Positions 12,616 through 32,977 of a stretch of 64,000 nucleotides of DNA are shown piece after piece. Numbering within the stretch: position 1 is the first letter of the stretch; every line of letters starts with the position of its first letter. The position numbers were made by a program, and so were the translations under genes. This stretch comes from Haladaptatus caseinilyticus (lineage in GTDB: Archaea; Halobacteriota; Halobacteria; Halobacteriales; Haladaptataceae): assembly GCF_026248685.1 (NCBI RefSeq), contig NZ_CP111040.1, forward strand, positions 62,001 through 126,000, in the 5' to 3' direction. Under the pieces are notes generated by a model. The model saw nothing but the letters and a program-made list of their open reading frames with translations. It was not told where the DNA came from and searched no databases.

Positions 12616-12647
12616 CATAGAAGACGGGCTCCCTTTCGGAAATCGCA

Positions 12648-13646
12648 TCACTCTATGCGAAACAGCTCCTTTTTTGCGGCGCGTTCTACCACCGCATCGA
12701 TTTGGACGAACCGTGGACCGTCACTGACAGGTTGCAATCGGACGTCTGCATCGCGGACTTCGAGTTCACGTTCACCGTCGGCGCTGACGACGGCGGTGGC
12801 GACGTCGAACGCGAACACTTCGCCGTCGTCGAGTACGCGATACTCCTCGATAGGGATACGCGAGAGGACGCCCGGAACGGTGACCGCATGTACCTCCTGT
12901 TGGGGTTCGCTGGTCGTCCCGAGTCGAAACCCGACACCGCCAGGGTCGTCGGGACGGCAGGCTGCGAGTCCACCGGCGATGCCAGAAAGACCGATTTCAT
13001 TTGATGAGGCCCGTGAGACGACGCCCCCGATGACGTCTTCCGGGTCGAGAATAGCTCGAGTTCCGACGAACTGCTGATCCAACAGCCCGAGGGTCGCGAG
13101 CCCTCGAATGCGGCGTTCGCCGCTCCCGTCGGCGACAACCGCTTCGACGGTTCCGTGTCGAACTGTCGTCTCGTCGGCGGATACTGCTCTGCTTGCGATG
13201 AGTCCTGTGGCAATACCGGCAACGGTTCCATCGACCGCGGTGGGCACTACGTTGTTCGTTCCGGTCGAAATGCTGACGACAGGGACGTCCCCAATTCCGT
13301 GGGCGACGTCGCGATTGGTGCCGTCGCCACCAAGTACAACCACGGCATCGGCAGCATCCGAGAATCGTTTTGCCGCGTTTCGTGCGTCTTCACCGGACGC
13401 CGTGACCGTCATATCCAGCAGGTCGACCGTCAGATCCTCTGGTGCGCCGTCCACGATTCGGTCGGCGAGGCCGGCATTGTCCGGCATGACGAGAACTTCG
13501 GCGTCGTCCGCCATCGTCACCCCTTCGAGGACACAGGCTGCCGTCCGACGCTTCGCGTAGTTGCTACTAACGCTCGCACCACCCGTCAGTCGCCGAATAT
13601 CGCGGCCGGCGACCGGGTTGACGATGAGTCCGACTGTCGGGGACAC
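12648..13646 (-). CDS. acoX: AcoX-like ATP-NAD kinase-family protein
   Basis: 332 residues with the NAD-kinase/diacylglycerol-kinase-like fold. The N terminus is VGLIVNPVAGRD and the GGDGTNRDVA motif lies near residue 104, followed by STGTNN. AcoX proteins are encoded in bacterial acetoin dehydrogenase operons; their reaction is not settled. The start is a GTG at 13646, immediately abutting the stop of the E1 beta gene, so the three genes (E1 alpha, E1 beta, this one) form a tight minus-strand operon. That neighbourhood is the main reason for choosing AcoX over a generic NAD kinase. Confidence 0.75.
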   Translation of the reverse strand: MSPTVGLIVNPVAGRDIRRLTGGASVSSNYAKRRTAACVLEGVTMADDAEVLVMPDNAGLADRIVDGAPEDLTVDLLDMTVTASGEDARNAAKRFSDAADAVVVLGGDGTNRDVAHGIGDVPVVSISTGTNNVVPTAVDGTVAGIATGLIASRAVSADETTVRHGTVEAVVADGSGERRIRGLATLGLLDQQFVGTRAILDPEDVIGGVVSRASSNEIGLSGIAGGLAACRPDDPGGVGFRLGTTSEPQQEVHAVTVPGVLSRIPIEEYRVLDDGEVFAFDVATAVVSADGERELEVRDADVRLQPVSDGPRFVQIDAVVERAAKKELFRIE

Positions 13647-14657
13647 TTATACGACGCGGTCAATGGCCGCTTTCACGTCGTCAGCGTCTGGCAGGACTTC
13701 TTCCTCCAACGTCGGACTGAACGGGATATGTACGTCTGCGACGCCGACGCGCTGAATCGGTGCATCGAGGCTGAAGAACGCATTCTCCATGACGCGTGTC
13801 GCAATCTCCGCGTGAGTTCCGTATGAGAGCGGGCTTTCGTCGGCGATAATGAGACGCCCCGTCTTGTCCACGCTCTCGACGAGTGTGTCGGTATCAAGTG
13901 GGTAGAGCGACCTGAGGTCAATGACCTCAACGCTCGTCTCGCCGGCGAGTTTGTCCGCGAGTTCAAGCGATTCACCGACCAACCGTTGTGTCGCGACAAC
14001 GGTTACGTCGTCACCCTCGCGTTCGACGTTCGCCGTTCCGAGCGGGATGGTGAAATCTTCGTCAAGCGGAACGTCGCCCGTCTGTTCGTACATCGCCTTG
14101 TTCTCGAAGACGAACACCGGGTCGTCAGAACGGATGGCTGACTTCAACAGCCCCTTTGCGGCTCGCGGCGTTCCGGGGGCGACGGCGATGATGCCCGGGA
14201 AGTGTGCGAACCACGTGTGCAGCGTGCCGGAATGCTGACTTGCAGCACCCATTCCGCCGCCCTCGGTCGTTCGAACCGTCACCGGCATCTCGGTCTTGCC
14301 GCCAAACATATAGCGGTTTTTCGCCATCTGATTGATTATCTGCTCCGAGCAGACGCCAAGGAAGTCCGCGAACATGATTTCCACGACGGGCCGCGTTCCA
14401 GTCGCCGCGGCACCGACCGCCGCGCCCATGAATCCGGCTTCGCTTATCGGCGTGTCCCGAACTCGGTCCTCCCCGAACTCGTCCACGAGACCGCTCGTCA
14501 CCTCGAAGACGCCGCCGAACTCGCCGACGTCCTCGCCGACGATGAAAACGTCCTCGTCAAGGTTCAGTTCTTCCTGCATCGCAAGGCGAATCGCCTCCCG
14601 AACTGTCATCTCCTCGGTGTCTGACGGTCCCGAAGAGGGCATGCTCTCGGTACTCAT
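13647..14657 (-). CDS. 2-oxoacid/acetoin dehydrogenase E1 component, beta subunit (set 1)
   Basis: 336 residues. Characteristic transketolase-like beta-subunit motifs are present: GEDVGEFGGVFEVTSGL (about residue 41), RVRDTPISEAGFMGAAVGAA, the SQHSGTLHTWFAHFPG loop, and the C-terminal EVIDLRSLYPLDTDTL. It pairs with the alpha subunit to bind thiamine diphosphate. Its start ATG overlaps the alpha subunit's stop (ATGA at 14654-14657), and the AcoX-like gene follows without a gap. Together with the E2 at 11017 this suggests an acetoin or pyruvate/branched 2-oxoacid dehydrogenase complex. Confidence 0.9.
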   Translation of the reverse strand: MSTESMPSSGPSDTEEMTVREAIRLAMQEELNLDEDVFIVGEDVGEFGGVFEVTSGLVDEFGEDRVRDTPISEAGFMGAAVGAAATGTRPVVEIMFADFLGVCSEQIINQMAKNRYMFGGKTEMPVTVRTTEGGGMGAASQHSGTLHTWFAHFPGIIAVAPGTPRAAKGLLKSAIRSDDPVFVFENKAMYEQTGDVPLDEDFTIPLGTANVEREGDDVTVVATQRLVGESLELADKLAGETSVEVIDLRSLYPLDTDTLVESVDKTGRLIIADESPLSYGTHAEIATRVMENAFFSLDAPIQRVGVADVHIPFSPTLEEEVLPDADDVKAAIDRVV

Positions 14658-15688
14658 CGGTCTTCACCTCCGTCAGTCCGCATCTGTTGTGCAAAGTCGT
14701 TTATCTCGGGTACGCTCGCGTTGAACATGTCGTCGTAGGCCTCGTTCGGGTCGGGATACTTCGCTTCCTTGGCTGTCTTCGCCGCCGCTTCCACCTGTTC
14801 GCTGATTTCCGATTCCATCTCGTCAAACTCCGATTCGGTGATGGTTCCGGCGTCGATGAGCCGTTTCCTGAACTGCTCTATCGCGTCGTTCTCCTTCCAA
14901 ATCGCAATGTCCTCGTCGGTTCGGTACGGTTGTTGGTCTCCTTCAAAATGACCGCGATAGCGGTAGGTGTCCGCTTCGATGAACGTCGGCCCATCCTGTG
15001 CGAGCGCACGTTTGCGGGCCTCTTTCACCGCTTCGTAGACGGCCGTGACGTCCATCCCGTCCACCGTGAATCCGGGGATATTGTACGCCTCTGCTGTCTC
15101 ACTTAGGTTCTGGAGATTATGCTGTTTTTCGACCGGTGTCCCCTCGCCGAACTGGTTGTTCTCGACCAGGAATATTGCCGGGAGGTCCCACGTCGCGGCG
15201 AGGTTGATGCTTTCGTGAATTTGCCCCTGTGCGACGGCACCGTCGCCGAAGAATGCCAATGCGACGGTATCTTCGCCTTTGATCTGTGAGGTGAGAGCAG
15301 CACCCGTCGCAAGCGGCGGCCCGGCGCCGACAATGCCGTTCGCACCCAACATGCCCGCGTCCACATCCGCGATGTGCATCGAGCCACCTTTGCCGTTACA
15401 GTAGCCGTTCGCTTTGCCGTACAACTCAGACATCATCTCCTCTAATTCGAGTCCCTTCGCGATGCAGTGGCCGTGGCCTCGGTGCGTACTCGTGATGTAG
15501 TCGTCTTCTTCCAACGCCGAACACGCGCCGACACCGACTGCCTCCTCGCCGATGTAGAGGTGGACGAACCCCGGGAGTTCCCCGTCACCGAACAGTTCGC
15601 CTGCTTTTGTGTCGAATGCCCGTATTGTTAACATCCGACGTAACGCTTCTTTTTGTCCGCTTTCTGTTTCGATGTCAATTGATACCAT
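14654..15688 (-). CDS. 2-oxoacid/acetoin dehydrogenase E1 component, alpha subunit (set 1)
   Basis: 344 residues from the ATG at 15688, where MVSIDIETESG precedes the conserved LRRMLTIRAFD; an upstream extension has no conserved features. The thiamine-diphosphate motif is FFGDGAVAQG ending in VENNQFG (about residues 165-195). The phosphorylation-loop region THRGHGHCIAKG and YRYRGHFEGD are also present. These resemble acetoin dehydrogenase alpha chains as well as pyruvate dehydrogenase, so substrate is undecided; the adjacent AcoX-like gene favours acetoin. First gene of a three-gene operon. Confidence 0.9.
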   Translation of the reverse strand: MVSIDIETESGQKEALRRMLTIRAFDTKAGELFGDGELPGFVHLYIGEEAVGVGACSALEEDDYITSTHRGHGHCIAKGLELEEMMSELYGKANGYCNGKGGSMHIADVDAGMLGANGIVGAGPPLATGAALTSQIKGEDTVALAFFGDGAVAQGQIHESINLAATWDLPAIFLVENNQFGEGTPVEKQHNLQNLSETAEAYNIPGFTVDGMDVTAVYEAVKEARKRALAQDGPTFIEADTYRYRGHFEGDQQPYRTDEDIAIWKENDAIEQFRKRLIDAGTITESEFDEMESEISEQVEAAAKTAKEAKYPDPNEAYDDMFNASVPEINDFAQQMRTDGGEDR

Positions 15689-16475
15689 TGTCCATGTTAT
15701 GGTTGACTTATCGACCATTAACTATTATGATTGTATCATGATATGTGGTGGTTCTAACTCGGGCTTCGGTTGTTTCTGGGATGCGTACAAATATAATTCT
15801 ATCTTACATTGCTCAAGTCTAACCAACATAATCATACCTCTGGATGGTTGGCTGTCGGTTAATTAGGCATCACGGCGGTGCTGGAACCAACTAACCCTAC
15901 AGTCTCCGATTTGCTCCCAAAATACATCATTGAAGACCTGATAGCAGGATTGTGAGACGTTGTGAGCCATTGCCTACTATGCACAAGAACTTCGAGCCTA
16001 TCGTGCTCCCAATCGGTGGCCGACCGCACGGCTGTCGCCACTCATATCGAACAGACAACGGTCAATGATTCGCTATAAAAGCACAAACGAAGAGGACTCA
16101 AGAAGATGCTGCAGATTGAAACACGATCGTAGAATAGGACCCCCGGGGAAAGCAATGATCGTAATCAAGACGATCAACGACAACCAGTGTTACTATTTCA
16201 GTGGGAAAAAGGTGATCGTATCAAATCTAAATACCTCTGCAAAGCGAGTTTGGAGTAACGATAATCGACAAAATTTCACATCGTTCCAAGAAGACACAGG
16301 TCGATATTAACCAACAAAATCAGTATCAAATTTGTTGGTTATATTCGAGAATAGCGTACAACAACACTGTGACTAAAACCTCTTCCTCGTTTTTCTTTCT
16401 GATTCCTTCTATCTGAGTATGAATTTTCTCCTCGAATCCTCCGTAACGTAGGATTCGACGTGGCTACTACTTAGC
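15689..16475. other. intergenic region between the two E1 sets
   Basis: About 790 bases without a supported gene. The part next to 15688 is AT-rich and should hold the promoter of the set 1 operon. A short minus-strand frame at 15859-16041 (60 residues, no domain recognised) may be decayed sequence. A hairpin at 16308-16341 is listed separately. Confidence 0.5.
16308..16341 (-). terminator. hairpin TAACCAACAAA ... TTTGTTGGTTA, possible terminator
   Basis: An 11-base perfect inverted repeat with a 12-base loop lies about 135 bases downstream of the minus-strand E1 beta stop at 16476. Related inverted repeats occur 3' of minus-strand genes at 34642-34684 and 35030-35070. A role in termination or mRNA 3'-end protection is an inference from position. 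Confidence 0.35.
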
Positions 16476-17441
16476 TCAGTAGTCGAGCACACGCCGAATT
16501 CCTTCTTCAATTCGAGGTGGATTGGGGAGGTAGTAGTCCTCCATCGAGAGCAAGGGGACTGGGATGTCAAAACCAGTGACTCGTTCAACGGGTGCTTCAA
16601 GGTACATCAGTGCATCGTCATTAATGCGAGCGACGAGTTCTGAGCCGAATCCGCCAGTTCGTGCTGCTTCGTGCACTATCATCGCCCGCCCCGTCCGCTT
16701 TACTGATTCAACGACTGTTTTATGATCCAGTGGTGAGATGGTGCGGAGATCAATTATCTCGGCGTCAACACCGTAATTCTCGACAGCCGCTATTGTCGGC
16801 TCCATCATGGCTCCCCATGAGATGACAGTTAACTCTGATCCAGTACGACGGACGGCTGCCTTTCCGATCGGTTCCTCATAGGAATCCTCGGGGAGATCCC
16901 CGCTGAACGACCGATAGATATGTTTCGGCTCCAAAAAGAGCACTGGGTCAGGGTCGCGGATAGCCGCGATGAGTAGCCCCTTCGCATCGTGTGGCGTGCT
17001 CGGGACGACTACTTTCAAACCGGGGATGTGACCGTATGCTCCCTCTAGGCTCTCGGAGTGATGTTCAAGTGCGTTGACTCCTGCCCCATATGGTGTTCGA
17101 ACAACGAGTGGTGCGGTCCACTCCCCACGTGTTCTCCACCGAATTCGGCTGGCCTGCGTGACAAGTTGGTCGAACGCCGGCGGGAGGAATCCTGAAAACT
17201 GAATTTCAGCTACGGGACGATACCCGTACATCGCGAGACCAACCGCACCGCCAACGATGGCAATCTCTGATAGGGGTGTGTCAGTGACTCGCTCCCCACC
17301 AAAACGATCTTTTAGCCCATCAGTCGCTCGGAAGACACCGCCGCTTTCCGCAACGTCCTCACCAAAGACTACAACCTGCTCATCCGTTGCCATCTCGGTG
17401 TGTAGCGCGTCGTTGATCGCTCCGACGATAGTTTCCTGCAT
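16476..17441 (-). CDS. 2-oxoacid dehydrogenase E1 component, beta subunit (set 2)
   Basis: 321 residues. It shares the E1 beta motifs GEDVAESGGVFRATDGL (about residue 28) and RVTDTPLSEIAIVGGAVGLA, then carries HHSESLEGAYGHIPGLKVV and EIIDLRTISPLDHKTV. The HSES segment and FLEPKHIYR resemble branched-chain and pyruvate dehydrogenase beta subunits of archaea and Gram-positive bacteria more than acetoin dehydrogenase, so this set probably has a different substrate from set 1. It follows the alpha gene by six bases. No E2 or E3 gene adjoins it, so it may borrow the E2 at 11017 or one elsewhere. Confidence 0.9.
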   Translation of the reverse strand: MQETIVGAINDALHTEMATDEQVVVFGEDVAESGGVFRATDGLKDRFGGERVTDTPLSEIAIVGGAVGLAMYGYRPVAEIQFSGFLPPAFDQLVTQASRIRWRTRGEWTAPLVVRTPYGAGVNALEHHSESLEGAYGHIPGLKVVVPSTPHDAKGLLIAAIRDPDPVLFLEPKHIYRSFSGDLPEDSYEEPIGKAAVRRTGSELTVISWGAMMEPTIAAVENYGVDAEIIDLRTISPLDHKTVVESVKRTGRAMIVHEAARTGGFGSELVARINDDALMYLEAPVERVTGFDIPVPLLSMEDYYLPNPPRIEEGIRRVLDY

Positions 17442-17447
17442 GATTGT

Positions 17448-18599
17448 TCACCCTTTCACCCGTTGTTCGATGTGATCGTACGCATCAGGGCGTTCCTCGA
17501 GGAACGCCTTGAACTCAACCAGTTGCCGTTGGAGGTATGGTGGTAGTTCGTCATATAGGTACTCGAATATCTCGTCAACACTCCGCTGTTCGTATTCATC
17601 CGCCGCCGCCAGTGCGGCGTCGAACTCATCATTAATCTCTTCAACCAGCGTTTCCCGATCGATTTCGCTCCACAATCCCTCCGATCGGAGGAACGACTCG
17701 TACCGAGCAATCGGGTCACGTTCTTGCCACTGTTCCACTTCTGACTCGTTGCGGTACCGACCCGGATCGTCACTGGTCGTGTGGGCGTCTCGGCGGTATG
17801 TCACCGACTCTACAAGCGTTGGATTTCCAGCACGAGCAGCCTTGCGTGCCTCAGAGACAGCCTCGTAGACAGCTAATACGTCGTTTCCGTCCACACGGAT
17901 GCCATTGATTCCATATCCGATAGCTCTCTGCGCTACGGAGCGTGCATTTGTTTGCTTCTCGAATGGCGTTGAAATTGCGTACTGATTATTCTGGCAGAAA
18001 AATACCGCCGGCACATCGAGCACGCCTGCGAAGTTCACTGCCTCATGGACGGCACCGGTACTGCTCGCTCCGTCACCGAAGTACGCTGTAACGACGTTGT
18101 CCTCGTCGGCAAGTTTCATGCCCCACGCGGTACCGGTGACGAGCGGGAGATGCGACCCAATGGAAATGGCGATCATTTGGTTGTGTTTAGCCATCTCTCG
18201 GTTCGCGTCCTCAAGGCCACGCCAGAACAGTATCAGATCCCGTATTGGCAATCCCTGAAGGAACATTGCGCCCGCTTCACGCCCCATCCCGAGTAGCCAG
18301 TCATCGTCTTTGAGTGCGTATCCGGATCCGATAATACTTGCCTCCTGACCGCGCCCGGAGCCGAAGGTTCCTATCTGACCGCGTCGCTGAAGTTTCACCA
18401 TCCGCTTGTCGAATGTCCGTTCTACGAGCATCCAGCGGTAGAGCTCGCGAAACGCATCGTCGTCGAGACTTGGAACTGCTTCGGAATTGTATGAACCGTC
18501 GGGGGCAAGAATTTGAAACAATCCGATCTCGAGATTCTCCTGCGAGATTCGACCTTGATCTGCACCAACCGATGCTACTAACTTATGATCATTATTCAT
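17448..18599 (-). CDS. 2-oxoacid dehydrogenase E1 component, alpha subunit (set 2)
   Basis: 383 residues from the ATG at 18599 (MNNDHKLVASVG); 25 further upstream codons are open but unconserved in appearance. The thiamine-diphosphate motif is AYFGDGASSTG ending in CQNNQYAIST (about residues 175-205). The loop THTTSDDPGRYR-like segment (DAHTTSDDPGRYR) is typical of branched-chain/pyruvate dehydrogenase alpha chains. The protein is longer than set 1 alpha by an N-terminal extension containing LAPDGSY, also seen in this subfamily. It is the upstream gene of a two-gene operon. Confidence 0.9.
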   Translation of the reverse strand: MNNDHKLVASVGADQGRISQENLEIGLFQILAPDGSYNSEAVPSLDDDAFRELYRWMLVERTFDKRMVKLQRRGQIGTFGSGRGQEASIIGSGYALKDDDWLLGMGREAGAMFLQGLPIRDLILFWRGLEDANREMAKHNQMIAISIGSHLPLVTGTAWGMKLADEDNVVTAYFGDGASSTGAVHEAVNFAGVLDVPAVFFCQNNQYAISTPFEKQTNARSVAQRAIGYGINGIRVDGNDVLAVYEAVSEARKAARAGNPTLVESVTYRRDAHTTSDDPGRYRNESEVEQWQERDPIARYESFLRSEGLWSEIDRETLVEEINDEFDAALAAADEYEQRSVDEIFEYLYDELPPYLQRQLVEFKAFLEERPDAYDHIEQRVKG

Positions 18600-18809
18600 G
18601 CTCGTGGAGCACCTTTGTTCGGGAATACAATGGTCGGGAGATAAATCCATCGGGAACTCCACTCTCGCCGACACCTGAAGCGATGATCATTTAGAATTGA
18701 CTGACGGAGCACAATAGACGGTGCATTAATCCGCCCACCTACATTGACCGAAATGCAGCATAGACCAACACCGCCATATTTTATATTGGTGCTATACAGA
18801 CATGCAGGT

Positions 18810-19688
18810 ATGCGATTCGTTCGATTCGACGAGGACCGACTAGGATTGCTTACCGACGACGATACTGGCGTCATCGATCTCAGTGACCGGCTGGATCTTA
18901 TCACCCGTGATCCGCTGTTGGAATTTATCCGCAGTGACTATGACGCGAGCGAGTTTACCGATGCAAATCCAGATTATGACATCGAGGACGTTCACATCGG
19001 CGCCCCTATCAAACGGCCAGGGAAGGTTATCGCCGCCCCACTCAACTACGAAAATCACATCGAGGAAGCTATCGCCGACAAAGACATTACAACGGATGAG
19101 TGGTTCTCGATCGAGGACAAAGGATACTTCCTAAAAGCGCCCTCGAGCGTTGTCGGGCCAGATGACGGTGTCAAACTTCCGTTCTCGGATCGTCGTGTTG
19201 ACCACGAGATCGAACTCGCGTTCGTGATGGAGTCGGATGTCAAAGACATAGATGCCGAGGAAGTATGGGATAACATCTTTGGGTACACCATCCTGCTCGA
19301 CATTTCCGTTCGCGGTGATCAAGACCGCTCCAATAGGAAGTCCTATGACACATTCACAGTCATCGGGCCATGCGTCGTCACACGCGACGAGATTGACGAC
19401 CCGCAGAGTCTCGATATGGAACTCCAACTCAATGGCGAGACGAAACAACGGGACAATACGAGTGACATGGTATACACGTGTGCTGACGTTGTGCAGTATG
19501 CCTCTCTCGGAACGACTATCGAGGCCGGAGACGTCATCACGACGGGAACTCCGGAGGGTGTGAGTGCCCTGTCGGATGGCGACACCATCGACGCTGAAAT
19601 CGAGAATGTTGGTTCCATGACCGTCGATGTAACGGCCCGTGACACTAGTTTTGAGGACGTAGACGTTCAGAAGGGCGGCCAAAAATAG
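18810..19688 (+). CDS. fumarylacetoacetate hydrolase (FAH) family protein, probable fumarylpyruvate/acylpyruvate hydrolase
   Basis: 292 residues from the ATG at 18810 (MRFVRFDEDRLGLL); a longer upstream frame is not conserved in character. The FAH fold is shown by the metal-binding acidic residues in VDHEIELAFVME (about 132) and the later Asp in YTILLDISVRGDQDR (about 165). The C-terminal signature is DVITTGTPEGV (about 244). FAH-family hydrolases cleave fumarylpyruvate to fumarate and pyruvate at the end of the gentisate pathway. The gene is convergent with gentisate dioxygenase, which supports that role. Other FAH reactions such as decarboxylation or isomerisation cannot be excluded. Confidence 0.8.
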   Translation: MRFVRFDEDRLGLLTDDDTGVIDLSDRLDLITRDPLLEFIRSDYDASEFTDANPDYDIEDVHIGAPIKRPGKVIAAPLNYENHIEEAIADKDITTDEWFSIEDKGYFLKAPSSVVGPDDGVKLPFSDRRVDHEIELAFVMESDVKDIDAEEVWDNIFGYTILLDISVRGDQDRSNRKSYDTFTVIGPCVVTRDEIDDPQSLDMELQLNGETKQRDNTSDMVYTCADVVQYASLGTTIEAGDVITTGTPEGVSALSDGDTIDAEIENVGSMTVDVTARDTSFEDVDVQKGGQK

Positions 19689-19789
19689 CGACGTTCGACT
19701 TAGTTTCTTCATCCAGTTTATACTGATTTCTGTGAACTAATGTGCAGAAGCTGGCTTAATACCGCAAAACTACACACTATGATTCGGCG

Positions 19790-19915
19790 ATGTCCCGTCT
19801 CGAAATCGACGCTATCGACGTCGCAGACGGAACTATCCAGATTTGCTGTAATGTGCCCTTCTTGCTCAAGAAAGTCGAAGCTACCACTTTTGCTGAGTCA
19901 ATGGATCTGAATTAA
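19790..19915 (+). CDS. 41-residue ORF, possible gene remnant
   Basis: The frame starts MSRLEIDAIDVADGTIQICC and runs to a stop 41 codons later. Composition looks coding, with acidic residues early and a CCNVPFLLKK segment, but no domain is recognised. It sits between the converging FAH and dioxygenase genes. It may be a remnant of a longer gene rather than functional. Confidence 0.25.
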   Translation: MSRLEIDAIDVADGTIQICCNVPFLLKKVEATTFAESMDLN

Positions 19916-19946
19916 TAGTGAAAACAAGCCGTTCTCGGCGATAATA

Positions 19947-21029
19947 TTAGGACGGTTGTGCCTCAGCGTAGAAATTAAAGGCCTCGAACACTGGCCGGTC
20001 GGAGATGCCGAGAAGGATAGCCTCGTCGTCAGGCTCATGATGATGGATCTCGTCCGGCGGCACGACGAAGATATCCCATTGACTCCATTCTAGCGCCTCG
20101 TCGCCGACGTGAGTCGCTCCTTCGCCCTCAATAACGAAGTATACCTCCGTCGCATTGTGGAAGTGCGGATCGGTCGGACCCTCGTTCAGCAACTGCGCTC
20201 GGAAGGACATTGTTGGGAATAGCGGCTCTTTCCCCGTCGCCGGATTAATGTAAGCGAGACTGTAGCCGTCGTGTGGGTCTGGATCATCGTTGTCCGCACG
20301 CTGACGAAGGGCTTCGAGCATCTCGTCCCAACCAAAGCGATATGGCGGCGTCGCCTCACGAATTCCCTCGAATGGACCGGGGATGGATCCGTCAGTCTTC
20401 TCATTTGCTGGGCGACCGCGACCATACTGGCTGTCCCAGTACCCCTGGGTCTTGGTGACTGGCTGGCGTTCGAGTTCGTGATTCTCGAAAACCTGTCGTT
20501 TATTTAAAGAGTCCAAAAACAGCGGCAGATCGAGAACGTCGAGCCATGCAGCTGTTTCATCAGAGTCGTTGATGTGGTCATGCCATTCCCACTGTGGGGT
20601 CGTGATAAGATCGTTATCCCGCATAGGGAATTCCTCGCCTGCAACGACTGTCTTCATGTCCTCGTTCCCATCGATGGTAAACCGCAGGGCGTTAGCAGAA
20701 TGTCGATGAGAGGGTGCGGTTTCCCCTGGGGAAACAGTCTGAACACCAACGTAGATCGTATTCGATATCGCGTTCCCAATAGAGGTATTGATTGGAACAG
20801 CGACACGTCGCTGAAATCCAGGGGGCAGATCTGCAATCGGGACGTCTTTTTCGATGCTGTCGATAGCAGTCTGGATATCCTCCCATTTCCAGATATCCGG
20901 TTGAAGATCATCGATGACGTTGCCGAAGTCGTCTTCTACCTCCCAGAGCGGGCGGAGACCATGCTTTTCAAGGATACCACGTGTTTCGGAACTCAGTTCT
21001 AAGAGTTCCTCTGGTTCTTGATGGGCCAT
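19947..21029 (-). CDS. gentisate 1,2-dioxygenase (bicupin)
   Basis: 360 residues from the ATG at 21029. Two cupin domains are visible. The N-terminal one has APSHRHSANALRFTIDG (about 110), with the two iron-ligand histidines and the Leu-Arg-Phe typical of gentisate dioxygenases. The C-terminal one has DPHFHNATEVYFVIEGEG (about 285) and EIHHHEP. The enzyme opens the gentisate ring to maleylpyruvate using Fe(II) and O2. It ends the run 22087-19947 on the minus strand, behind a zinc-ribbon protein, a hotdog thioesterase and a 93-residue protein, which fits production of gentisate from a CoA thioester. The closely related 1-hydroxy-2-naphthoate dioxygenase is the main alternative. Confidence 0.88.
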   Translation of the reverse strand: MAHQEPEELLELSSETRGILEKHGLRPLWEVEDDFGNVIDDLQPDIWKWEDIQTAIDSIEKDVPIADLPPGFQRRVAVPINTSIGNAISNTIYVGVQTVSPGETAPSHRHSANALRFTIDGNEDMKTVVAGEEFPMRDNDLITTPQWEWHDHINDSDETAAWLDVLDLPLFLDSLNKRQVFENHELERQPVTKTQGYWDSQYGRGRPANEKTDGSIPGPFEGIREATPPYRFGWDEMLEALRQRADNDDPDPHDGYSLAYINPATGKEPLFPTMSFRAQLLNEGPTDPHFHNATEVYFVIEGEGATHVGDEALEWSQWDIFVVPPDEIHHHEPDDEAILLGISDRPVFEAFNFYAEAQPS

Positions 21030-21145
21030 AGTCAATTATTAGCACAGACTCACCATAAGTGTAGTGGACACATCTAATCCATAGTCGCTCAAGTAGTTCC
21101 TTCCTGGTTGTTTGTACTCCCTGGGTTACATATGATCTACGCGCA

Positions 21146-21316
21146 CTATGACTGTGCGTCGAAAACCTCGGTAGTCGGAAAGACCGCCCGGCAGTCCTCA
21201 CAGACCATCTGTCCCTGAATGGCGTATTCCCAGAGTTTGCCGCCGCAGCTTAAGCAGTCGAAATGTGCTTTGACGAATGGATTCTCCTCGGCGTAAATGT
21301 TGTCAAACTCGGCCAT
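21146..21316 (-). CDS. 56-residue zinc-ribbon protein of the gentisate operon
   Basis: The start is the ATG at 21316 (MAEFDNIYAEENPF). Two knuckles, CLSCGG and CEDCRA, separated by a WEYAIQGQMV strand, make a plausible zinc ribbon. It lies between the thioesterase and gentisate dioxygenase with gaps of 84 and 116 bases, and on the same strand. Possible roles are an adaptor like the rubredoxin-type domains that bind acyl-CoA enzymes, or a regulator. No function is known from the sequence alone. Confidence 0.65.
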   Translation of the reverse strand: MAEFDNIYAEENPFVKAHFDCLSCGGKLWEYAIQGQMVCEDCRAVFPTTEVFDAQS

Positions 21317-21400
21317 GTGAATACATTGCGAATGACATCTCAAAAGCGTATTGCCTGCCTGACCGATATCTTCTTGCTCACGAAGTACCAGCAGAGGCGG

Positions 21401-21802
21401 TTAGTCTTCGGCGTACTCTTCCATTGCTGCTCGCAGGTCGTCAGGAATCTCTGTTGCCCCCTCACCACCGGTGCGAGCGCAGACGCGTTGTTCATACCCA
21501 TGGAACGCTACTTTATCATCACAGCGAGCAACGTACTCAAGTCGGACGCTTCGGTTTCCAATCGTTGGCGTTAGTTCAATGGTAACACCATCTCCGGCCT
21601 CGACGGGATTCTCAAACTCAAAATTCATTTCTACGAGCGGCAATCCAAATCCATGCTCCTCAGTGATTTCCCAGTATGGCCAGCCGATTTTCTCCATGAA
21701 CATATCAGATGTCTCGTGGATCGCATCGACGATACGGGGGTAGTGGGCAATGCCGAAGGGGTCAGTATCCGAAAATCGTACTGTCCACGTTCGTTCGTAC
21801 AT
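21401..21802 (-). CDS. hotdog-fold acyl-CoA thioesterase (4-hydroxybenzoyl-CoA thioesterase type), candidate gentisyl-CoA thioesterase
   Basis: 133 residues. The N terminus has the 4HBT signature: VRFSDTDPFGIAHYPRIVDA, in which Asp after Thr is the usual catalytic residue, followed by the helix MFMEKIGWPY. Length and motif order fit the 4-hydroxybenzoyl-CoA/YbgC thioesterase family. It starts 3 bases after the preceding 93-residue gene. In the characterised Brevibacillus pathway for 4-hydroxybenzoate a thioesterase of this kind releases gentisate from gentisyl-CoA (PhgC). That role is inferred here from the accompanying ligase, flavin hydroxylase and gentisate dioxygenase. Confidence 0.8.
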   Translation of the reverse strand: MYERTWTVRFSDTDPFGIAHYPRIVDAIHETSDMFMEKIGWPYWEITEEHGFGLPLVEMNFEFENPVEAGDGVTIELTPTIGNRSVRLEYVARCDDKVAFHGYEQRVCARTGGEGATEIPDDLRAAMEEYAED

Positions 21803-21805
21803 ACG

Positions 21806-22087
21806 TTACTCCCCCCAGAGAGTGACGGAGTTTCGTGCCATGGCCCTGGTATCTGTCCTCACCATGGAATTGCTCTCAACATTTGCAGTCATATCGTTCC
21901 TGCGCACACAATCGGCGACGCGGTCAGCCACGGTTGTGAGTGCCGACACACCAATCTCACTTACGTCCGAAACGCCAGTTTTTGCGAATATCGATCGTTC
22001 CTTATCAAATAGGAAATGACAGTCGTGGCCACTACTATTGCGAAGAACAGTCCCACTGTACACGTCGGATCGACTCTCTGATCTCAT
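21806..22087 (-). CDS. 93-residue conserved-looking protein, first gene of the gentisate operon
   Basis: The ATG at 22087 opens a frame with acidic haloarchaeal composition, including CHFLFDKERSIFAKTGVSDV and a C-terminal MARNSVTLWGE. Its stop lies 3 bases before the thioesterase start, so the two are probably translationally coupled. No family is recognised. The compact alpha/beta pattern could be a small subunit or an accessory protein. A TATA-like box upstream (22100-22125) makes it the likely first gene of the operon. The start is uncertain; a longer frame to 22204 exists but overlaps the promoter. Confidence 0.5.
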   Translation of the reverse strand: MRSESRSDVYSGTVLRNSSGHDCHFLFDKERSIFAKTGVSDVSEIGVSALTTVADRVADCVRRNDMTANVESNSMVRTDTRAMARNSVTLWGE

Positions 22088-22099
22088 GCTTGTGTGATG

Positions 22100-22125
22100 G
22101 ATTAACGTACAGAAATAAAACGTTT
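22100..22125 (-). promoter_or_regulatory. probable promoter of the gentisate operon
   Basis: Read on the minus strand the stretch has a purine-rich BRE-like CGAAAAACG and a TATA-like TTTTATTT about 25-30 bases before the ATG at 22087. This matches the expected position for a nearly leaderless haloarchaeal transcript. Assigned by position and composition only. Confidence 0.4.
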
Positions 22126-22210
22126 TTCGAAGGAAACATTCATCCCGATCCAATACTTTCGGAACAATCATTGTAGTTGGATGAGAGATAGCACAGACCC
22201 ACATCTCAAC

Positions 22211-22597
22211 ATGGGTTTTTCGTTGAATCTCGTTTGGTTTTCCATGCCTGATCTTGACCAGTCGTGGATCTCGCTGCCGGCAGGACTCAGCATGGTAGGT
22301 GCCATCCTCTTGTACGCGCCAGTATCAGGAAACGTCATGACATTGATTGCTATCACTCTTGTCTGTGTTAGTCTTCGGATCGGAACGTCCGTTGAACTTT
22401 GGTTCACTGCACTTGTCTGTATTGGTCTCATCGGCATTACGCTCTCAACGAAGATCTCGCACGGTCAACGTTCCAATCAGATTTCAGTCACAGACCCGGA
22501 GCTTTATGTAGTATATATTCGCTATTACCGTGTATGCTCTTATCGCAACTATTTCATCAATCCGTTGCCCGAGCACCCGATACGGTCGCCGTCGTAA
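22211..22597 (+). CDS. possible small membrane protein (weak call)
   Basis: An open frame of 128 residues from the ATG at 22211 has two or three hydrophobic segments: ISLPAGLSMVGAILLYA, VMTLIAITLVCVSL and LWFTALVCIGLIGITL. Its tail overlaps the start of the ligase gene in another frame, and the last 40 residues do not look natural, so it may be a remnant of a transporter subunit. The hydrophobic segments are the only support. Confidence 0.3.
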   Translation: MGFSLNLVWFSMPDLDQSWISLPAGLSMVGAILLYAPVSGNVMTLIAITLVCVSLRIGTSVELWFTALVCIGLIGITLSTKISHGQRSNQISVTDPELYVVYIRYYRVCSYRNYFINPLPEHPIRSPS

Positions 22598-24048
22598 ATC
22601 TCGGATCAGGACGGGAATTGACGTACCAAGAGCTATCTGATCGTGTATTTTCGCTTGCCAATGGGTTACGCAAGCATGGTATTGGTCACGGTGATAGAAT
22701 AGCGGTCTGTATGGGGAACCGTCCGGAAACAGTCATGACCTTCCTTGCAACTCAGTTTATCGGTGCCATCCCAGTTCTATTTAACTTCAGAGAGACTGCC
22801 GATGGGGTTACGTACCATGTCGATGATTCGAATGTAGACACATTGTTGTACGATGCCTTGTCCGCAGAATCGGTACAGATGGCGGTCGATTCAATCGACT
22901 GTGACCTCATCTACGTTGGGAATGAAGAAACGTCTGAAGCAAAGCCGTTCGGTTCACTCCTCGATGCGCCGCCAGATAAGCCAGATGTCAATGTATCTGC
23001 TGATGATCCAAGTGTTATTCTCTATAGTTCTGGGACAACCGGTGACCCGAAAGGAATTCCGCTGGACCATCGTGCAACGACTACTCGAACGTTGGTCAAT
23101 GCTATGGGCCAGCGATATTATCTCGATGAAACGCTGATCGGCATAATGCCCCTGTATCATACCATCGGACTTCACGGTATTCTCTGTAACGTTCTGAGCG
23201 TGTCCGGAACATATCTCTGTATGCCGAAATTCAATCCGGAACGATGTGTCGAAGCGATCTCTGAATGGGAGGTTACTGGCCTTCACGAAGCACCGACGAT
23301 CTTCAGTCAATATCTCGCCACCAACGCAATAGACGAAGTCGACGTCAGTAGCGTTCGAGCAATAGGGTACTCGGGGGCACCGATGAATTCAGAGCTATTC
23401 AACAAAGTTGTTAATGCATTTAATCCAGATCACATTGCAAATCTATATGGGACGACCGAAGCGTTCGGTACAACTGCACACGTAGGGCTAAACGAGAATG
23501 ACGACCCGAGGATAACGGGACCAGCAAATGTTTTCTACGAGATTCGGATCGTCAACCTCGAAAACGATCCCAACGACGAGGTTGAGCATGGTGAAGAAGG
23601 AGAGCTCATAGTCAATATAGAGTCACCACTCGCTTTCGACGGATACCTGAACAAGCCAGAGCACACCGAGGAAGTTATTCATGACGGGTGGTTCTTCACC
23701 GGTGATGCAGCCTATGAGACAGATGAAGGGTATATTGTGATTACCGGTCGAACTGACGACATGATCATAAGTGGCGGCGAGAACATTCATCCAGTGAATG
23801 TGGAAGACATCCTTACTTCCCATTCGGAAATTCGTGATGCTGCCGTTGTTGGCGTTCCGGATAAAGAGTGGGGAGAACTTGTTAAGGCGTACATCGTTGC
23901 TGATGACGGTATGACCTCGGATGATATTGATAAATGGTGTATGAACAACGATGCCCTTGCGAACTTCAAGCGACCACGAGAATACGAATTTCTCGACGAA
24001 CTTCCTCGTAACCCGAGTGGGAAAATACTCCGGCATAAGCTTCGCTGA
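22534..24048 (+). CDS. AMP-dependent acyl-CoA ligase, candidate 4-hydroxybenzoate-CoA ligase
   Basis: 504 residues from the ATG at 22534, chosen because a TATA-like TAGTATAT lies about 20-25 bases upstream and the protein then begins just before the conserved APDTVAVVN segment. ANL-superfamily motifs are complete: the P-loop YSSGTTGDPKGIPLDH (about 167), LYGTTEAFG (about 306), TGDAAYETDEGYI (about 390), GRTDDMIISGGENI (about 408) and the catalytic Lys in PSGKILRHKLR at the C terminus. It would activate an aromatic or aliphatic acid as its CoA thioester. Divergent from the thioesterase operon and close to the flavin hydroxylase, it fits the first step of CoA-dependent 4-hydroxybenzoate conversion (PhgA-like). 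Confidence 0.85.
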   Translation: MLLSQLFHQSVARAPDTVAVVNLGSGRELTYQELSDRVFSLANGLRKHGIGHGDRIAVCMGNRPETVMTFLATQFIGAIPVLFNFRETADGVTYHVDDSNVDTLLYDALSAESVQMAVDSIDCDLIYVGNEETSEAKPFGSLLDAPPDKPDVNVSADDPSVILYSSGTTGDPKGIPLDHRATTTRTLVNAMGQRYYLDETLIGIMPLYHTIGLHGILCNVLSVSGTYLCMPKFNPERCVEAISEWEVTGLHEAPTIFSQYLATNAIDEVDVSSVRAIGYSGAPMNSELFNKVVNAFNPDHIANLYGTTEAFGTTAHVGLNENDDPRITGPANVFYEIRIVNLENDPNDEVEHGEEGELIVNIESPLAFDGYLNKPEHTEEVIHDGWFFTGDAAYETDEGYIVITGRTDDMIISGGENIHPVNVEDILTSHSEIRDAAVVGVPDKEWGELVKAYIVADDGMTSDDIDKWCMNNDALANFKRPREYEFLDELPRNPSGKILRHKLR

Positions 24049-24297
24049 GAAGAATACTGCTCATATTTCCGCTCACCATTGCTGTCTGGATGTCGATCTT
24101 CTCACTGCGAGCGTCGGTGGGGTAAGGTGAATTCACACTTGACGAACGTCATACTAAAATATCAATTACTTGCTATTACTGACTCGTTCAGAAATCTGAC
24201 GCAGTCAACTCCGATGACATTGAATCCAATCTCGATGGTGCCCTGGGAGCGGTCAGGAATGAAATAGATTTACAAGGTTTCGACAACAATTGAGACT

Positions 24298-24621
24298 ATG
24301 ACGCGAGAGGTGGATATTGAAGCAGCTGTGGAACAGCGTAAGGAAATTCCAGATGTCGATACTGTGTATGAACCCACTGAAGAAATTTCCATCACCGACT
24401 TATTTGATACCACGTTTGTCCGAAATCGCACTGAATTTGACTCATTCAGTGAGCTGGTCGCAGCAAGCCCCAGTAATGCCGACTCCGCCGCCGAACTCGA
24501 TAGAGTATCTCACGGTGAGTGGGACGAATTCGTGGCCGAAACAACCGATTTCGAGGACGAGAAATCGCTGGTGATGGCCGCCCGGGATCACTGGGTCGCC
24601 CAAACATTGGATTTAGCTTAA
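24298..24621 (+). CDS. 107-residue hypothetical protein beside the aromatic cluster
   Basis: The ATG at 24298 starts MTREVDIEAAVEQRKEIPDV. The protein is strongly acidic (segments EISITDLFD, SHGEWDEFVAETTDFEDEK) and predicted largely helical, without Cys motifs or membrane segments. An AT-rich GATTTACAAGG stretch about 30 bases upstream may be its promoter. It lies between the ligase and the flavin hydroxylase genes, so it may belong to the same pathway. No family is recognised and no function is proposed. Confidence 0.55.
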   Translation: MTREVDIEAAVEQRKEIPDVDTVYEPTEEISITDLFDTTFVRNRTEFDSFSELVAASPSNADSAAELDRVSHGEWDEFVAETTDFEDEKSLVMAARDHWVAQTLDLA

Positions 24622-24708
24622 AAAACGTGCAGAGTTCTTGCTGTCTATCTAGCGATAGAGTTGGGCACTGTCACCATCTGTTCCCTAAACCGTACTGCTG
24701 AACGTAAT

Positions 24709-25938
24709 TCAGTAATTCCCTGTCGAGACGATTGGCGGGGTTCCGTGGGGTCCGTATGGTGCATCGTCGAGCCACTCACCAGCTACTTCGAAGTGATCTG
24801 CCAAGGTGGCGGCTGCTTCTTTTTGAAGGATTGTCGCCGGATTCTCGCCCTGGAGGTATTCCAGTGCCTGACCGGCCGCATTGAGGTTGAATTCGGCAGC
24901 CGTTTCGCGGCGAGCAGCATACAACTCGACCTCATCGCGGACAACCGCATCAGTCTTGGCGTTGATTGCGGCCGCAATTGCCGAGGCAGCCTCATCTGCA
25001 TCGGCAATTCCGGAGTTCATTCCTCGAGCACCGAATGGCGCCAACAGATGGGCTGCTTCTCCTGCAAGTAACACACGGCGGTGTTTGTCTACGAACGTAT
25101 CTGCCATTACTTGGAGGAAATAATAGCTCGAGACCCACTGTAGGTTGTCCGCATACTGTTCTCCCATTATATCACGGACAAATTCACGCATTCGCTCGTC
25201 GCTGCAGAGCTCTTCGGGATCGTCGCCTTCGATACACTGGATGTCGAGCCGCCAGCCACCAGCAAAGGGAACAAGCAGTACGTTCCGCCCGTCAGCTGCT
25301 GGCGCATCGTAATGGAACACTCGTTCGAACGGACGTGGGTTATCTTTGACTTCCCCGACGTCTGCGATGATGAAGGCGTTCTCGGACTGGTCGCCATCGA
25401 AATCCGCGCCGATTTCTTTTCGGACAGTCGAGCCACCGCCGTCAGCACCAACCAAGAATTCTCCCACCCATTCGCGACCGTCGGCTGTTTCAACTTCGAC
25501 TCCGCTGGGAGACGTCTCTACTGATTCTACTTCAGCGTCCCAGTGGATGTCAATGCCAGCTTCGTCTAAGGCTCGATGCATGTGTTCCTCGGTTACGACC
25601 TGTGGAATGCTAGTGAAATGGGGGATATCGCCGGATCCACCGGGCGAATCATACGTTCGACTGAACACTTCTTTTCCCCGGAAAAGCGTTCGTCTCGTTG
25701 GCCAGACGAGACCCTCGGCAACGAGATCAGTCCCAAGTCCAGGATGGATGCGTTCGAGAGTTCGGAGAGTCGATCCGTGGACGTAGATGGCACGACTCCC
25801 CGACCGATCGCGATCTTCGGATTCGGCTTCAAGTATCGTCGCATCTACCCCACGTGCGTGTAAAGCTAATGCAGTGGACATTCCAACTGGACCTGCACCA
25901 GCTATCAGTGCTGGCGCTGCTGTCGTATTACCGGTCAT
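24709..25938 (-). CDS. FAD-dependent aromatic monooxygenase, candidate 4-hydroxybenzoyl-CoA 1-hydroxylase
   Basis: 409 residues from the ATG at 25938 (MTGNTTAAPALIAGAGPVG); longer starts only add an unconserved leader. This is a group A flavoprotein hydroxylase: Rossmann GAGPVGMSTALAL (about 11), the FLVGADGGGSTVRKEIG motif (about 153) and the FAD ribityl motif LLAGEAAHLLAPFGARGMNSG (about 280, shown in part). It would use NAD(P)H and O2. With the neighbouring ligase, thioesterase and gentisate dioxygenase it fits PhgB, which hydroxylates 4-hydroxybenzoyl-CoA at C1 and triggers migration of the thioester side chain. A direct 3-hydroxybenzoate 6-hydroxylase is the alternative. Confidence 0.82.
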   Translation of the reverse strand: MTGNTTAAPALIAGAGPVGMSTALALHARGVDATILEAESEDRDRSGSRAIYVHGSTLRTLERIHPGLGTDLVAEGLVWPTRRTLFRGKEVFSRTYDSPGGSGDIPHFTSIPQVVTEEHMHRALDEAGIDIHWDAEVESVETSPSGVEVETADGREWVGEFLVGADGGGSTVRKEIGADFDGDQSENAFIIADVGEVKDNPRPFERVFHYDAPAADGRNVLLVPFAGGWRLDIQCIEGDDPEELCSDERMREFVRDIMGEQYADNLQWVSSYYFLQVMADTFVDKHRRVLLAGEAAHLLAPFGARGMNSGIADADEAASAIAAAINAKTDAVVRDEVELYAARRETAAEFNLNAAGQALEYLQGENPATILQKEAAATLADHFEVAGEWLDDAPYGPHGTPPIVSTGNY

Positions 25939-26159
25939 GGTCGTATCGTTGGAGTAAATCATGATAACGGTTATGGTCACGGCATCGCGTCGGGTTTGCC
26001 ACAGGGATCACGTGTTTTCAGCCGCTCCAATAATTTTATTTCATAAACTCTAATTTATATTTTGTTATTATGCTAAACCATTAATAGAATACCATGAAAT
26101 ATGTCCAAACCACATATATGACCGGTATCTTTATTATCTATGAAAAATACGGTCGAACC

Positions 26160-27620
26160 ATGTTTGGGAGTACCACGTGGGAGAATGACGAGCATATGTC
26201 CGGCGAAAGTGTCGAATCTAATACAAAAACTATCAAGGATGTGAGATTGATAAAAAAACGGCCAAAGCCTGTACTGAGGTTCCTTCTCGCGTTCGGAATC
26301 GGTTCGTTCTTCTTTCTGTTTCCGATACAGTGGAACGGCCAAACTACGATTCCACTCGATGTGGCTGTAAGTCTCATACAGGAAGCGTTTCCAGCTTTCG
26401 TGGAATTCTTTACGTTCAGCCTGATATGCGCCGGTGGTATTCTGACGACGCTTTCAATGGCCAATCACCATGGAATCGTGACGATATCCGAACAAACGGT
26501 CGACCGGTTCGAACTGGATTACTGGCAAACGTCGAATGTGTTTTGGATTTTCCGGATCGTAGGAATCTTTCTTGCGATCCCGATCCTAATCGGTCAGGGT
26601 CCACAGTGGCTACTTAGCGAAAATACATCGGGCATCGTCTGGGGGGGCCTTCTCCTGACGATTGCACTTGTGATTCCAATCGGTGCTGTTTTCGTCAACT
26701 TACTCGCCGAACTCGGAGGATTACAATTCGTCGGCACGCTCTCCCAGCCGGTAATGAAGCCGGTATTCAACTTACCCGGCCGTGCTGCCCTTGATAGTGC
26801 AGCGTCATGGCTCGGATCATTCAGCATCGGTTACTATCTGACACGAAACGTCTTTGATCGTGGCGGCTACGACAAACAGGAGGTTTTTGTCATCTGTACC
26901 TGTTTCGCGACCGGGAACCTCGGAACAGTCGGAGCGATCGCCGCTGTCCTCGAGATATTGCATGTCTTTCCGGTCATCGTCCTCTTGTATCTACTCAGCG
27001 TAATTATTACAGCCATCATTCTCGTTCGAATCCCACCGCTTTCGACCGTCCCGAACGAATTCATTGCTGAACCCGATCCAGAGCCAGAATTCAATGGATC
27101 ATTGGGGGACTATTTTCGATTTGCGTTCAACGAAGCCGTTAAAACTGCTGAAAAAGGAGCCTCACTCCCACGATCTGCGATCGAAGGCTTCATCGATGGA
27201 CTGAAACTGACTGGAATGATGCTCGGCACGATTCTCACGATTGGGATGACCGCCGTTATTCTCAACGAATATACGTCGGTCTTCGAGGTGCTATCGACAC
27301 CGCTCGTTCCTATCTTGTCAGCGTTCGGTATCCCGGATCCACAGATGGCCGCTACATCGGTGATCCTTGGCGGTGCCGAGATGTTTATCGGTGCCACGTT
27401 CGCCGTCGGCGCTGACCTGATTACGAAAGTCTACGTTGTAATCGTAGTGAGCGGGCAAGCGATTTTCTTTGCCGCCTCAGCGCCGATGATGGTCGATATG
27501 TTTGACGATATTCCGATCCGATTCCGTGACCTGTTCGTACTGTTCGTGATGCGAACTGCCCTTCTCATCCCAATTACCGCTGCATTGGTTCATGCCGCGG
27601 TGCTTTTAGGGCTCATCTGA
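26160..27620 (+). CDS. YjiH-type nucleoside-recognition (Gate) domain membrane protein
   Basis: 486 residues from the ATG at 26160, which has a TATA-like TTTATTAT about 25 bases upstream and is probably leaderless; the ATG at 26196 is an alternative. About ten hydrophobic helices are visible, with Gate-domain-like segments: FATGNLGTVGAIAAVLEIL (about 262) and TSVILGGAEMFIGATF (about 400). Family members are presumed transporters with unknown substrates. The gene begins about 220 bases from the start of the divergent flavin hydroxylase gene, so it may import the aromatic substrate, but that is only positional inference. Confidence 0.65.
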   Translation: MFGSTTWENDEHMSGESVESNTKTIKDVRLIKKRPKPVLRFLLAFGIGSFFFLFPIQWNGQTTIPLDVAVSLIQEAFPAFVEFFTFSLICAGGILTTLSMANHHGIVTISEQTVDRFELDYWQTSNVFWIFRIVGIFLAIPILIGQGPQWLLSENTSGIVWGGLLLTIALVIPIGAVFVNLLAELGGLQFVGTLSQPVMKPVFNLPGRAALDSAASWLGSFSIGYYLTRNVFDRGGYDKQEVFVICTCFATGNLGTVGAIAAVLEILHVFPVIVLLYLLSVIITAIILVRIPPLSTVPNEFIAEPDPEPEFNGSLGDYFRFAFNEAVKTAEKGASLPRSAIEGFIDGLKLTGMMLGTILTIGMTAVILNEYTSVFEVLSTPLVPILSAFGIPDPQMAATSVILGGAEMFIGATFAVGADLITKVYVVIVVSGQAIFFAASAPMMVDMFDDIPIRFRDLFVLFVMRTALLIPITAALVHAAVLLGLI

Positions 27621-31642: not shown

Positions 31643-32977
31643 ATGGGCGTGTCAGCTCTCTTCGACCCAGACGGCATCGCCGTCATCGGAGCATCGAACA
31701 CACCGGGTAAGCTTGGGAACGACGCAATGTCAAACATTGAAGCGTACGACACCGAGATTTACCCTGTAAACCCTTCGAGTTCGGGGACTGTCTTCGGATA
31801 TGAATTCGTCGACTCGGTCCAAGAAACGGACGCGGACTTAGCTTTCTGTTGTGTTCCCGGATCGCTGCAGCCAGAGGTGCTTGAAGAATGTGGTAAAGCA
31901 GGCGTAGATGCTGCCGTGATCTTTGCTGGTGGATTTGCCGAAGCCGGTGATGAGGGAAAAGAACTCCAAGAGGCAGTTGCAACGATCGCAAACAAGTACG
32001 ATATTACGGTTCTCGGACCGAATACAGCTGGATATGCGATCCCACACAACGATCTATATGGGTCGTTTGTCCCACGTATTCGTGATGTCAATCCCGGGAA
32101 TATCGGACTCGTTACGCAGAGTGCTGGCGTCGGCATTACCATGTCGTTCCAGCTCACACGTGAAGGATACGGTATTTCAGCGATGTTCGGTCTTGGAAAT
32201 CGGATGAACACAGAATTCGCCGACGTTATTCCACTGCTCGACGCAGATCCGAAAACTGATGCTATTGTTATGCATGTTGAAGGGACGGAGGACGTTGATG
32301 CACTTTTAGACGCCTGCCAAAGCTCAGAGACCCCAGTTGTTGCATACAAAGTCGGCAAGCATGACATCGCCGATCTCGCCCAGGCACACACGGCAGCTCC
32401 AGCACAGGAGAACGCAATTTATGAAGATGGATTTGATCACCCCGGGTTAGTCACTGTTTCTTCGACTACAGAGCTGATCGATGCTGGTAGAGTCTTAGCT
32501 GACTCGCCGACACCGAATGGAACAAACGTGGGAATTGTGACGGCTCAGGCCGGCCCCGGGATCATCATTACGGACTACCTCAAAGGTACAGATGCAACCT
32601 TCCCAAATCTGACCAACGAAACACGAGAACAGTTAGATGACATCCTTCCCGGAATCACGTATACGGAGAACCCTGTCGATACGGGTCGACCAATGCCGGA
32701 GTTCGGAGAGGTTGTCGACATAGTTGCACGCGATGACCGAATCGATATCATCCTCGTCTACGAAATATATGAAGATTCATTGGGCTACCCAGTTGATGAA
32801 CTGTCGAAACTTTCAACGGAGGTCGACAAGCCGATTCTTTTTACCGTTGCTGGCCCCGACCACGCACTTGAACACGAACGGCAACAGATGGAGAATCTTG
32901 GGATTCCGACATTCGATACGCCTGAACGTGGAGCACAAGCAGTCACAGCACTTATCGACTCAATCTCAGATACCTAA
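31643..32977 (+). CDS. ADP-forming acyl-CoA synthetase, alpha-subunit type (stand-alone)
   Basis: 444 residues. The N-terminal CoA-binding domain begins FDPDGIAVIGASNTPGKLG and continues with IYPVNPSSS. Two ligase-CoA-like domains follow, with GLVTQSAGVGITMSF (about 155) and the TAQAGPGIIITDYL region (about 302). A His in QAHTAAPAQ (about 250) occupies the place of the phosphorylated His of the usual SHTG motif. The catalytic ATP-grasp beta subunit is not fused and no beta gene is next to it. It lies about 170 bases downstream of the D-2-hydroxyacid dehydrogenase and may process a CoA thioester from the same substrate. Confidence 0.75.
   Translation: MGVSALFDPDGIAVIGASNTPGKLGNDAMSNIEAYDTEIYPVNPSSSGTVFGYEFVDSVQETDADLAFCCVPGSLQPEVLEECGKAGVDAAVIFAGGFAEAGDEGKELQEAVATIANKYDITVLGPNTAGYAIPHNDLYGSFVPRIRDVNPGNIGLVTQSAGVGITMSFQLTREGYGISAMFGLGNRMNTEFADVIPLLDADPKTDAIVMHVEGTEDVDALLDACQSSETPVVAYKVGKHDIADLAQAHTAAPAQENAIYEDGFDHPGLVTVSSTTELIDAGRVLADSPTPNGTNVGIVTAQAGPGIIITDYLKGTDATFPNLTNETREQLDDILPGITYTENPVDTGRPMPEFGEVVDIVARDDRIDIILVYEIYEDSLGYPVDELSKLSTEVDKPILFTVAGPDHALEHERQQMENLGIPTFDTPERGAQAVTALIDSISDT

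Follow-up and report, generated by a model that had tools for sequence, protein, structure and literature searches.

We analysed a 64,000-nucleotide stretch of the Haladaptatus caseinilyticus genome (contig NZ_CP111040.1, positions 62,001 to 126,000; hereafter the window) and found that the genes at its positions 18810-25938 probably form a CoA-dependent set for the catabolism of 4-hydroxybenzoate. Their content makes it likely that the aromatic ring is hydroxylated as a CoA thioester, leading to gentisyl-CoA, and, with less certainty, probable that 4-hydroxybenzoate is the acid that enters the route. A route of this kind is outlined for phgABC in PMC7862547, where 4-hydroxybenzoate is converted to gentisate via CoA ester formation, hydroxylation with a 1,2-shift and thioester hydrolysis. 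In Haloarcula D1 the breakdown of 4-hydroxybenzoate passes through gentisate and involves an NIH shift (Fairley 2002, as cited in PMC10815724 and PMC4005966); an initial annotation of the window also noted that haloarchaea degrade 4-hydroxybenzoate by way of gentisate. A Haladaptatus isolate grows on and removes 4-hydroxybenzoate (PMC10635022). In the searchable literature we found no hydroxylase gene assigned to the archaeal 4-hydroxybenzoate NIH-shift pathway; the gene set provides candidates for this pathway, described in 2002, across many haloarchaeal genera.

From computed gene identities, family placements, co-occurrence and synteny we infer the substrate, the acyl migration and the order of the reactions. 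An AMP-forming ligase would convert 4-hydroxybenzoate and ATP to 4-hydroxybenzoyl-CoA. A flavin monooxygenase (FMO), using FAD, NAD(P)H and O2, would then hydroxylate C1, para to the phenolic hydroxyl, and the acyl-CoA group, unable to leave, would shift to C2 to produce gentisyl-CoA. A hotdog thioesterase (TE) would release gentisate, gentisate 1,2-dioxygenase (GDO) would open its ring to maleylpyruvate, and an FAH-family protein would hydrolyse maleylpyruvate directly to maleate and pyruvate. The genes concerned are the following.

18810..19688, plus strand: FAH-family hydrolase, probable maleylpyruvate hydrolase, 292 amino acids (aa) (FAA_hydrolase, 7.4e-53)
19947..21029, minus strand: GDO, a double cupin of 360 aa (two Cupin_2 domains, Pfam)
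21146..21316, minus strand: zinc-ribbon protein of 56 aa, CxxC...CxxC, between TE and GDO (neighbourhood comparison)
21401..21802, minus strand: TE, proposed gentisyl-CoA thioesterase, 133 aa (4HBT_2, 1.7e-10)
22534..24048, plus strand: AMP-forming CoA ligase for aryl acids, proposed to activate 4-hydroxybenzoate, 504 aa counted from the ATG (AMP-binding, 3e-70, and the C-terminal domain)
24298..24621, plus strand: acidic protein of 107 aa, no known family, candidate partner of FMO (neighbourhood comparison, co-occurrence)
24709..25938, minus strand: FMO of group A, 409 aa, proposed to hydroxylate 4-hydroxybenzoyl-CoA at C1 with an acyl shift (FAD_binding_3, 8.1e-43)
26094..27620, plus strand: nucleoside-recognition/Gate membrane protein, possibly for aromatic-acid uptake (Gate, 3.5e-8; adjoins FMO in several other loci)

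The minus strand thus carries TE, the zinc ribbon and GDO consecutively, plus FMO, and the plus strand FAH, the ligase and the 107-aa gene. All five enzymes named in the initial annotation are present with sound Pfam/NCBIfam family matches, and the limits it gave agree with the likely ATG starts of FAH (18810) and FMO (25938). Its inventory was incomplete, two conserved small genes (56 and 107 aa) having been overlooked.

The association of these genes was examined in 293 haloarchaeal genomes. FMO was found in 48 and GDO in 46, with 45 genomes carrying both, three FMO only and one GDO only (Fisher p ~3e-48, a value that ignores shared ancestry and the horizontal transfer of whole plasmid segments). 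In Haladaptatus pallidirubidus and H. salinisoli FMO is plasmid-borne. TE was present in 41 genomes, namely 40 of the 45 with FMO and GDO and one other, which bears GDO. An AMP-forming ligase, of either of two cluster types that are ~31% identical to each other, was encoded in 39 genomes, 38 of them among the same 45. Comparison of neighbourhoods of ~20 kb at some 45 loci revealed that parts of the cluster recur in reshuffled order in most of them, with returning groupings of FMO with the 107-aa gene, and of GDO with the zinc ribbon, often accompanied by TE and AcdBA, and FAH close by. The grouping of these genes is not due to chance. The ligase and TE point to a CoA route because an acid that can be hydroxylated in its free form needs neither. 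Furthermore, no other ring-hydroxylating oxygenase recurs within ~10 kb of FMO across its loci, which implies that the substrate must already bear one hydroxyl group. In Natribaculum luteum, genes annotated paaA and paaC lie near FMO (L047 12725-14805) and possibly encode a second aroyl-CoA oxygenase.

Natrinema salinisoli (G210) is the only genome with GDO and TE that has no FMO; GDO, the zinc ribbon, TE, AcdBA and FAH are found on its plasmid. In the same stretch, near GDO and ~0.3 kb past the zinc ribbon, lies the gene for a 699-aa protein (L205 4620-6716) that matches salicylyl-CoA 5-hydroxylase (PRK08255) over its whole length with 562 bits, below the cut-off of 1078, and close to it is a ligase resembling 2,3-dihydroxybenzoyl-AMP synthase. 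Salicylyl-CoA 5-hydroxylase yields gentisyl-CoA in the Sdg route. Because a homologue of this enzyme replaces FMO in Natrinema, TE and GDO would be an outlet for gentisyl-CoA fed by CoA-level hydroxylases, of which FMO looks like the usual one. In three other genomes, the ligases next to salicylyl-CoA 5-hydroxylase homologues share 60-62% identity with that of G210. Four genomes carry such a homologue in addition to FMO, so FMO is not simply a salicylate enzyme. The window's genome has a 45% homologue of the salicylyl-CoA 5-hydroxylase type elsewhere on the same contig (C5:327852-329969), which measures 607 kb in a genome of 4.8 Mb.

The AlphaFold (AF2) model of FMO, with a mean pLDDT of 90, has the fold of a group A flavin hydroxylase. 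Its nearest solved fold is PnpA, p-nitrophenol 4-monooxygenase, an ipso para-hydroxylase that attacks the carbon bearing the para substituent; VibMO1 is also among the matches. Fold, families, co-occurrence and synteny all fit what a Phg-type route would require, a single-component group A flavin hydroxylase associated with the ligase, TE and GDO. FMO lies outside the salicylyl-CoA 5-hydroxylase family, PRK08255 not being among its 25 best NCBIfam matches, and BLASTP against the salicylyl-CoA 5-hydroxylase homologue gave no meaningful similarity. In our tree the haloarchaeal FMOs form one clade (support 96/97) and are joined to actinobacterial FMOs at 100/100, to the exclusion of other relatives. 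Eight of the actinobacterial FMOs (L045, L092, L094-L097, L099, L100) are encoded in a PabB-ligase-ligase-FMO-PabC cassette; the first of the two ligases, examined at one locus, gave matches to the families of benzoate-CoA ligase and of the p-hydroxybenzoate-AMP ligase FadD22. PabB and PabC serve 4-aminobenzoate synthesis, pointing to para-substituted benzoyl substrates, and the cassette suggests oxidation of activated 4-aminobenzoate in natural-product clusters. Tentatively, this clade, common to haloarchaea and to actinobacterial natural-product clusters, might be a family spanning both domains whose enzymes take activated para-substituted benzoates and hydroxylate the carbon that carries the acyl group, which shifts in the process. 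In haloarchaea 4-hydroxybenzoyl-CoA would become gentisyl-CoA; in actinobacteria, activated 4-aminobenzoate would yield a 5-aminosalicyl thioester (or its decarboxylated product). The main archaeal branch would depend on the 107-aa partner. In one genome FMO is duplicated; the second copy (G117:C3:375716-376984) contains two in-frame TGA codons, still adjoins a 107-aa gene of its own and is probably decaying. The other strong group A flavin monooxygenase of the window's genome is a PRK06185-type oxidoreductase and was rejected as a candidate.

Domains and closest solved relative identify the ligase as the AMP-forming enzyme that a Phg-type route calls for, presumably acting on aryl acids. That relative is 4-chlorobenzoyl-CoA ligase (34% identity over 488 aligned residues), a weak pointer to a para substrate since many ligases match the same structure. 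Orthologues of the window type (58% or more) occur in four other genomes, all with FMO and GDO. The solved relatives of TE include the 4-hydroxybenzoyl-CoA thioesterases 5wh9 and 1bvq, and the SDTDP motif with the expected catalytic Asp is present in 16 of 16 TE copies examined.

The flavin chemistry would be identical if the ligase made 3-hydroxybenzoyl-CoA, either from 3-hydroxybenzoate or in the course of degrading benzoate, cinnamate or phenylpropionate, and FMO hydroxylated C6, which is also para to the hydroxyl, to give gentisyl-CoA without acyl migration. AcdAB genes often lie within the cluster, and in Haloferax D1227 the degradation of benzoate, of 3-hydroxybenzoate and of phenylpropionate runs via gentisate (PMC4005966). 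We nevertheless consider this unlikely: the bacterial relatives of FMO stand beside genes for 4-aminobenzoate, a para-substituted acid; known enzymes 6-hydroxylate free 3-hydroxybenzoate without CoA, which would leave the ligase and TE idle; and a benzoate route requires a second oxygenase, whereas none recurs within ~10 kb of FMO. The confinement of TE to GDO genomes, almost only with FMO, argues in turn against a reading in which FMO acts on a free acid, as an ordinary 3-hydroxybenzoate 6-hydroxylase (or salicylate 5-hydroxylase), and the ligase and TE form a separate branch that yields free hydroxybenzoate. Group A flavin hydroxylases do usually act on free phenolic acids, and in the 2006 work of Fairley acdB and tieA of Haloferax D1227 were reportedly induced by benzoate and not by 3-hydroxybenzoate, gdoA by both. 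However, the sole FMO-less genome with GDO and TE has a homologue of a CoA-thioester hydroxylase, and 3-hydroxybenzoate 6-hydroxylase is missing from the 50 best structure matches of FMO, making a free-acid enzyme improbable. A salicylate route, with the ligase making salicylyl-CoA and FMO 5-hydroxylating it, would rely on the known conversion to gentisyl-CoA and be served equally by TE and GDO. Yet haloarchaea have a separate, unrelated pair, the salicylyl-CoA 5-hydroxylase homologue and its own ligase type; the homologue coexists with FMO in the four genomes mentioned and shows no meaningful similarity to it, so this route is very improbable.

Several observations weigh against 4-hydroxybenzoate as the substrate or against the uniformity of the route. 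No sequence evidence decides outright between 4- and 3-hydroxybenzoyl-CoA. TE is absent from five of the genomes with FMO and GDO, and both AMP-forming ligases from seven. The ligase varies by genome, being of the window type, of the 31%-identical type or AcdAB, and hence the activated acid may differ between genomes. Compared with what we take to be the pocket residues of 4-chlorobenzoyl-CoA ligase, the window ligase keeps His207 and Gly305 and has His, Ser and Thr for Phe249, Ala280 and Val208; this pocket is compatible with a para-hydroxyl, a weak and non-diagnostic sign. By manual reading, TE has His (residue 29) where 4HBT has its second catalytic Asp. In the same work of Fairley, acdB and tieA are said to be expressed on benzoate in Haloferax D1227 and not on 4-hydroxybenzoate in Haloarcula D1, the CoA genes reportedly being assigned to benzoate and no hydroxylase named. 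This weighs against a role of TE in Haloarcula D1, where an AMP-forming ligase and another thioesterase could serve. The CoA-thioester route into gentisate put forward in the initial annotation is nonetheless supported by TE and AMP-forming ligase tracking FMO and GDO, by the Natrinema exception and by the para-type bacterial relatives, and its choice of 4-hydroxybenzoate as substrate is probably right.

Downstream of gentisyl-CoA hydrolysis, GDO is a double-cupin enzyme near solved gentisate dioxygenases: of seven solved relatives, six were deposited under the name gentisate 1,2-dioxygenase (2d40, 3bu7, 2phd and others). Among NCBIfam models, TIGR02272 (gentisate 1,2-dioxygenase) fits it best, with 210 bits, below the cut-off of 442.1; GDO is a divergent archaeal branch, with 77-94% identity among haloarchaea. 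The best solved relatives of FAH are maleylpyruvate hydrolase structures (6jvv/6jvw, 163 bits, residues 1-281, nearly full length), the only ones at E<1e-35. The initial annotation had seen no maleylpyruvate isomerase and left the later steps open. The genome has no MDMPI match, and its four GST_N_3 matches all lie on another contig. There need be no gap, since an FAH resembling maleylpyruvate hydrolases would make direct hydrolysis possible and an isomerase unnecessary, which explains how the pathway could finish without one.

As for the two small proteins, the distribution of the 107-aa protein coincides exactly with that of the main FMO clade (69% or more identity to the window FMO), both being present in 32 of the 293 genomes, with one further match at 31% identity set aside. 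Its gene nearly always adjoins FMO or GDO, and one genome has two copies each of FMO and the 107-aa gene. The protein has no Pfam match at E<5, and its structure prediction, made from a two-sequence alignment, is meaningless (pLDDT 46). The zinc ribbon adjoins GDO in other loci, where it is 71-95% identical to the reference copy, and has a weak Trm112p match (0.0065, below cut-off). Both are probably accessory proteins: the 107-aa protein, a candidate for a new family of small partners, would assist FMO, and the zinc ribbon GDO or TE.

Known systems share parts of this arrangement. Going by the description in PMC7862547, Brevibacillus laterosporus PHB-7a has in PhgABC (Zhao et al. 2018) the same kinds of enzyme, an aryl-CoA ligase, a flavin hydroxylase and a thioesterase leading to gentisate. 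The window genes differ in lying on both strands, in the company of GDO, a relative of maleylpyruvate hydrolase and the two small proteins, and in a ligase type that changes from genome to genome. GDO, a CoA synthetase and a thioesterase are likewise united in the gdoA, acdB and tieA set reported by Fairley et al. (2006) for Haloarcula D1 and Haloferax D1227, and many loci in our comparison group GDO, TE, AcdB and AcdA; in the window an AMP-forming ligase takes the place that AcdAB occupies in others. The SdgABC salicylate route also hydroxylates the ring at the CoA level to gentisyl-CoA, and a homologue accompanies GDO and TE in Natrinema salinisoli, but its salicylyl-CoA 5-hydroxylase (PRK08255 type) is larger than and unrelated to FMO, and its ligase is different. 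The gentisyl-CoA thioesterase BH1999, within a gentisate cluster of Bacillus halodurans, is likewise a hotdog enzyme with a catalytic Asp (PMC516016), whereas TE of the window has His at the residue matching the second Asp.

Further observations concern the surroundings of the cluster. At 22181-22597 lies a fragment similar (E 5e-5) to the N-terminal part of SLC13 permeases, probably a remnant of rearrangement; such a gene is found near the cluster ligase in several other haloarchaea. At 31643-32974 there is a lone gene like the alpha subunit of ADP-forming acyl-CoA synthetases, with no beta subunit seen adjoining. Finally, positions 11017-18674 hold two 2-oxoacid dehydrogenase E1 gene pairs, an E2 gene and an NAD-kinase-like gene, and the second E1 pair keeps its place beside FAH in related genomes.

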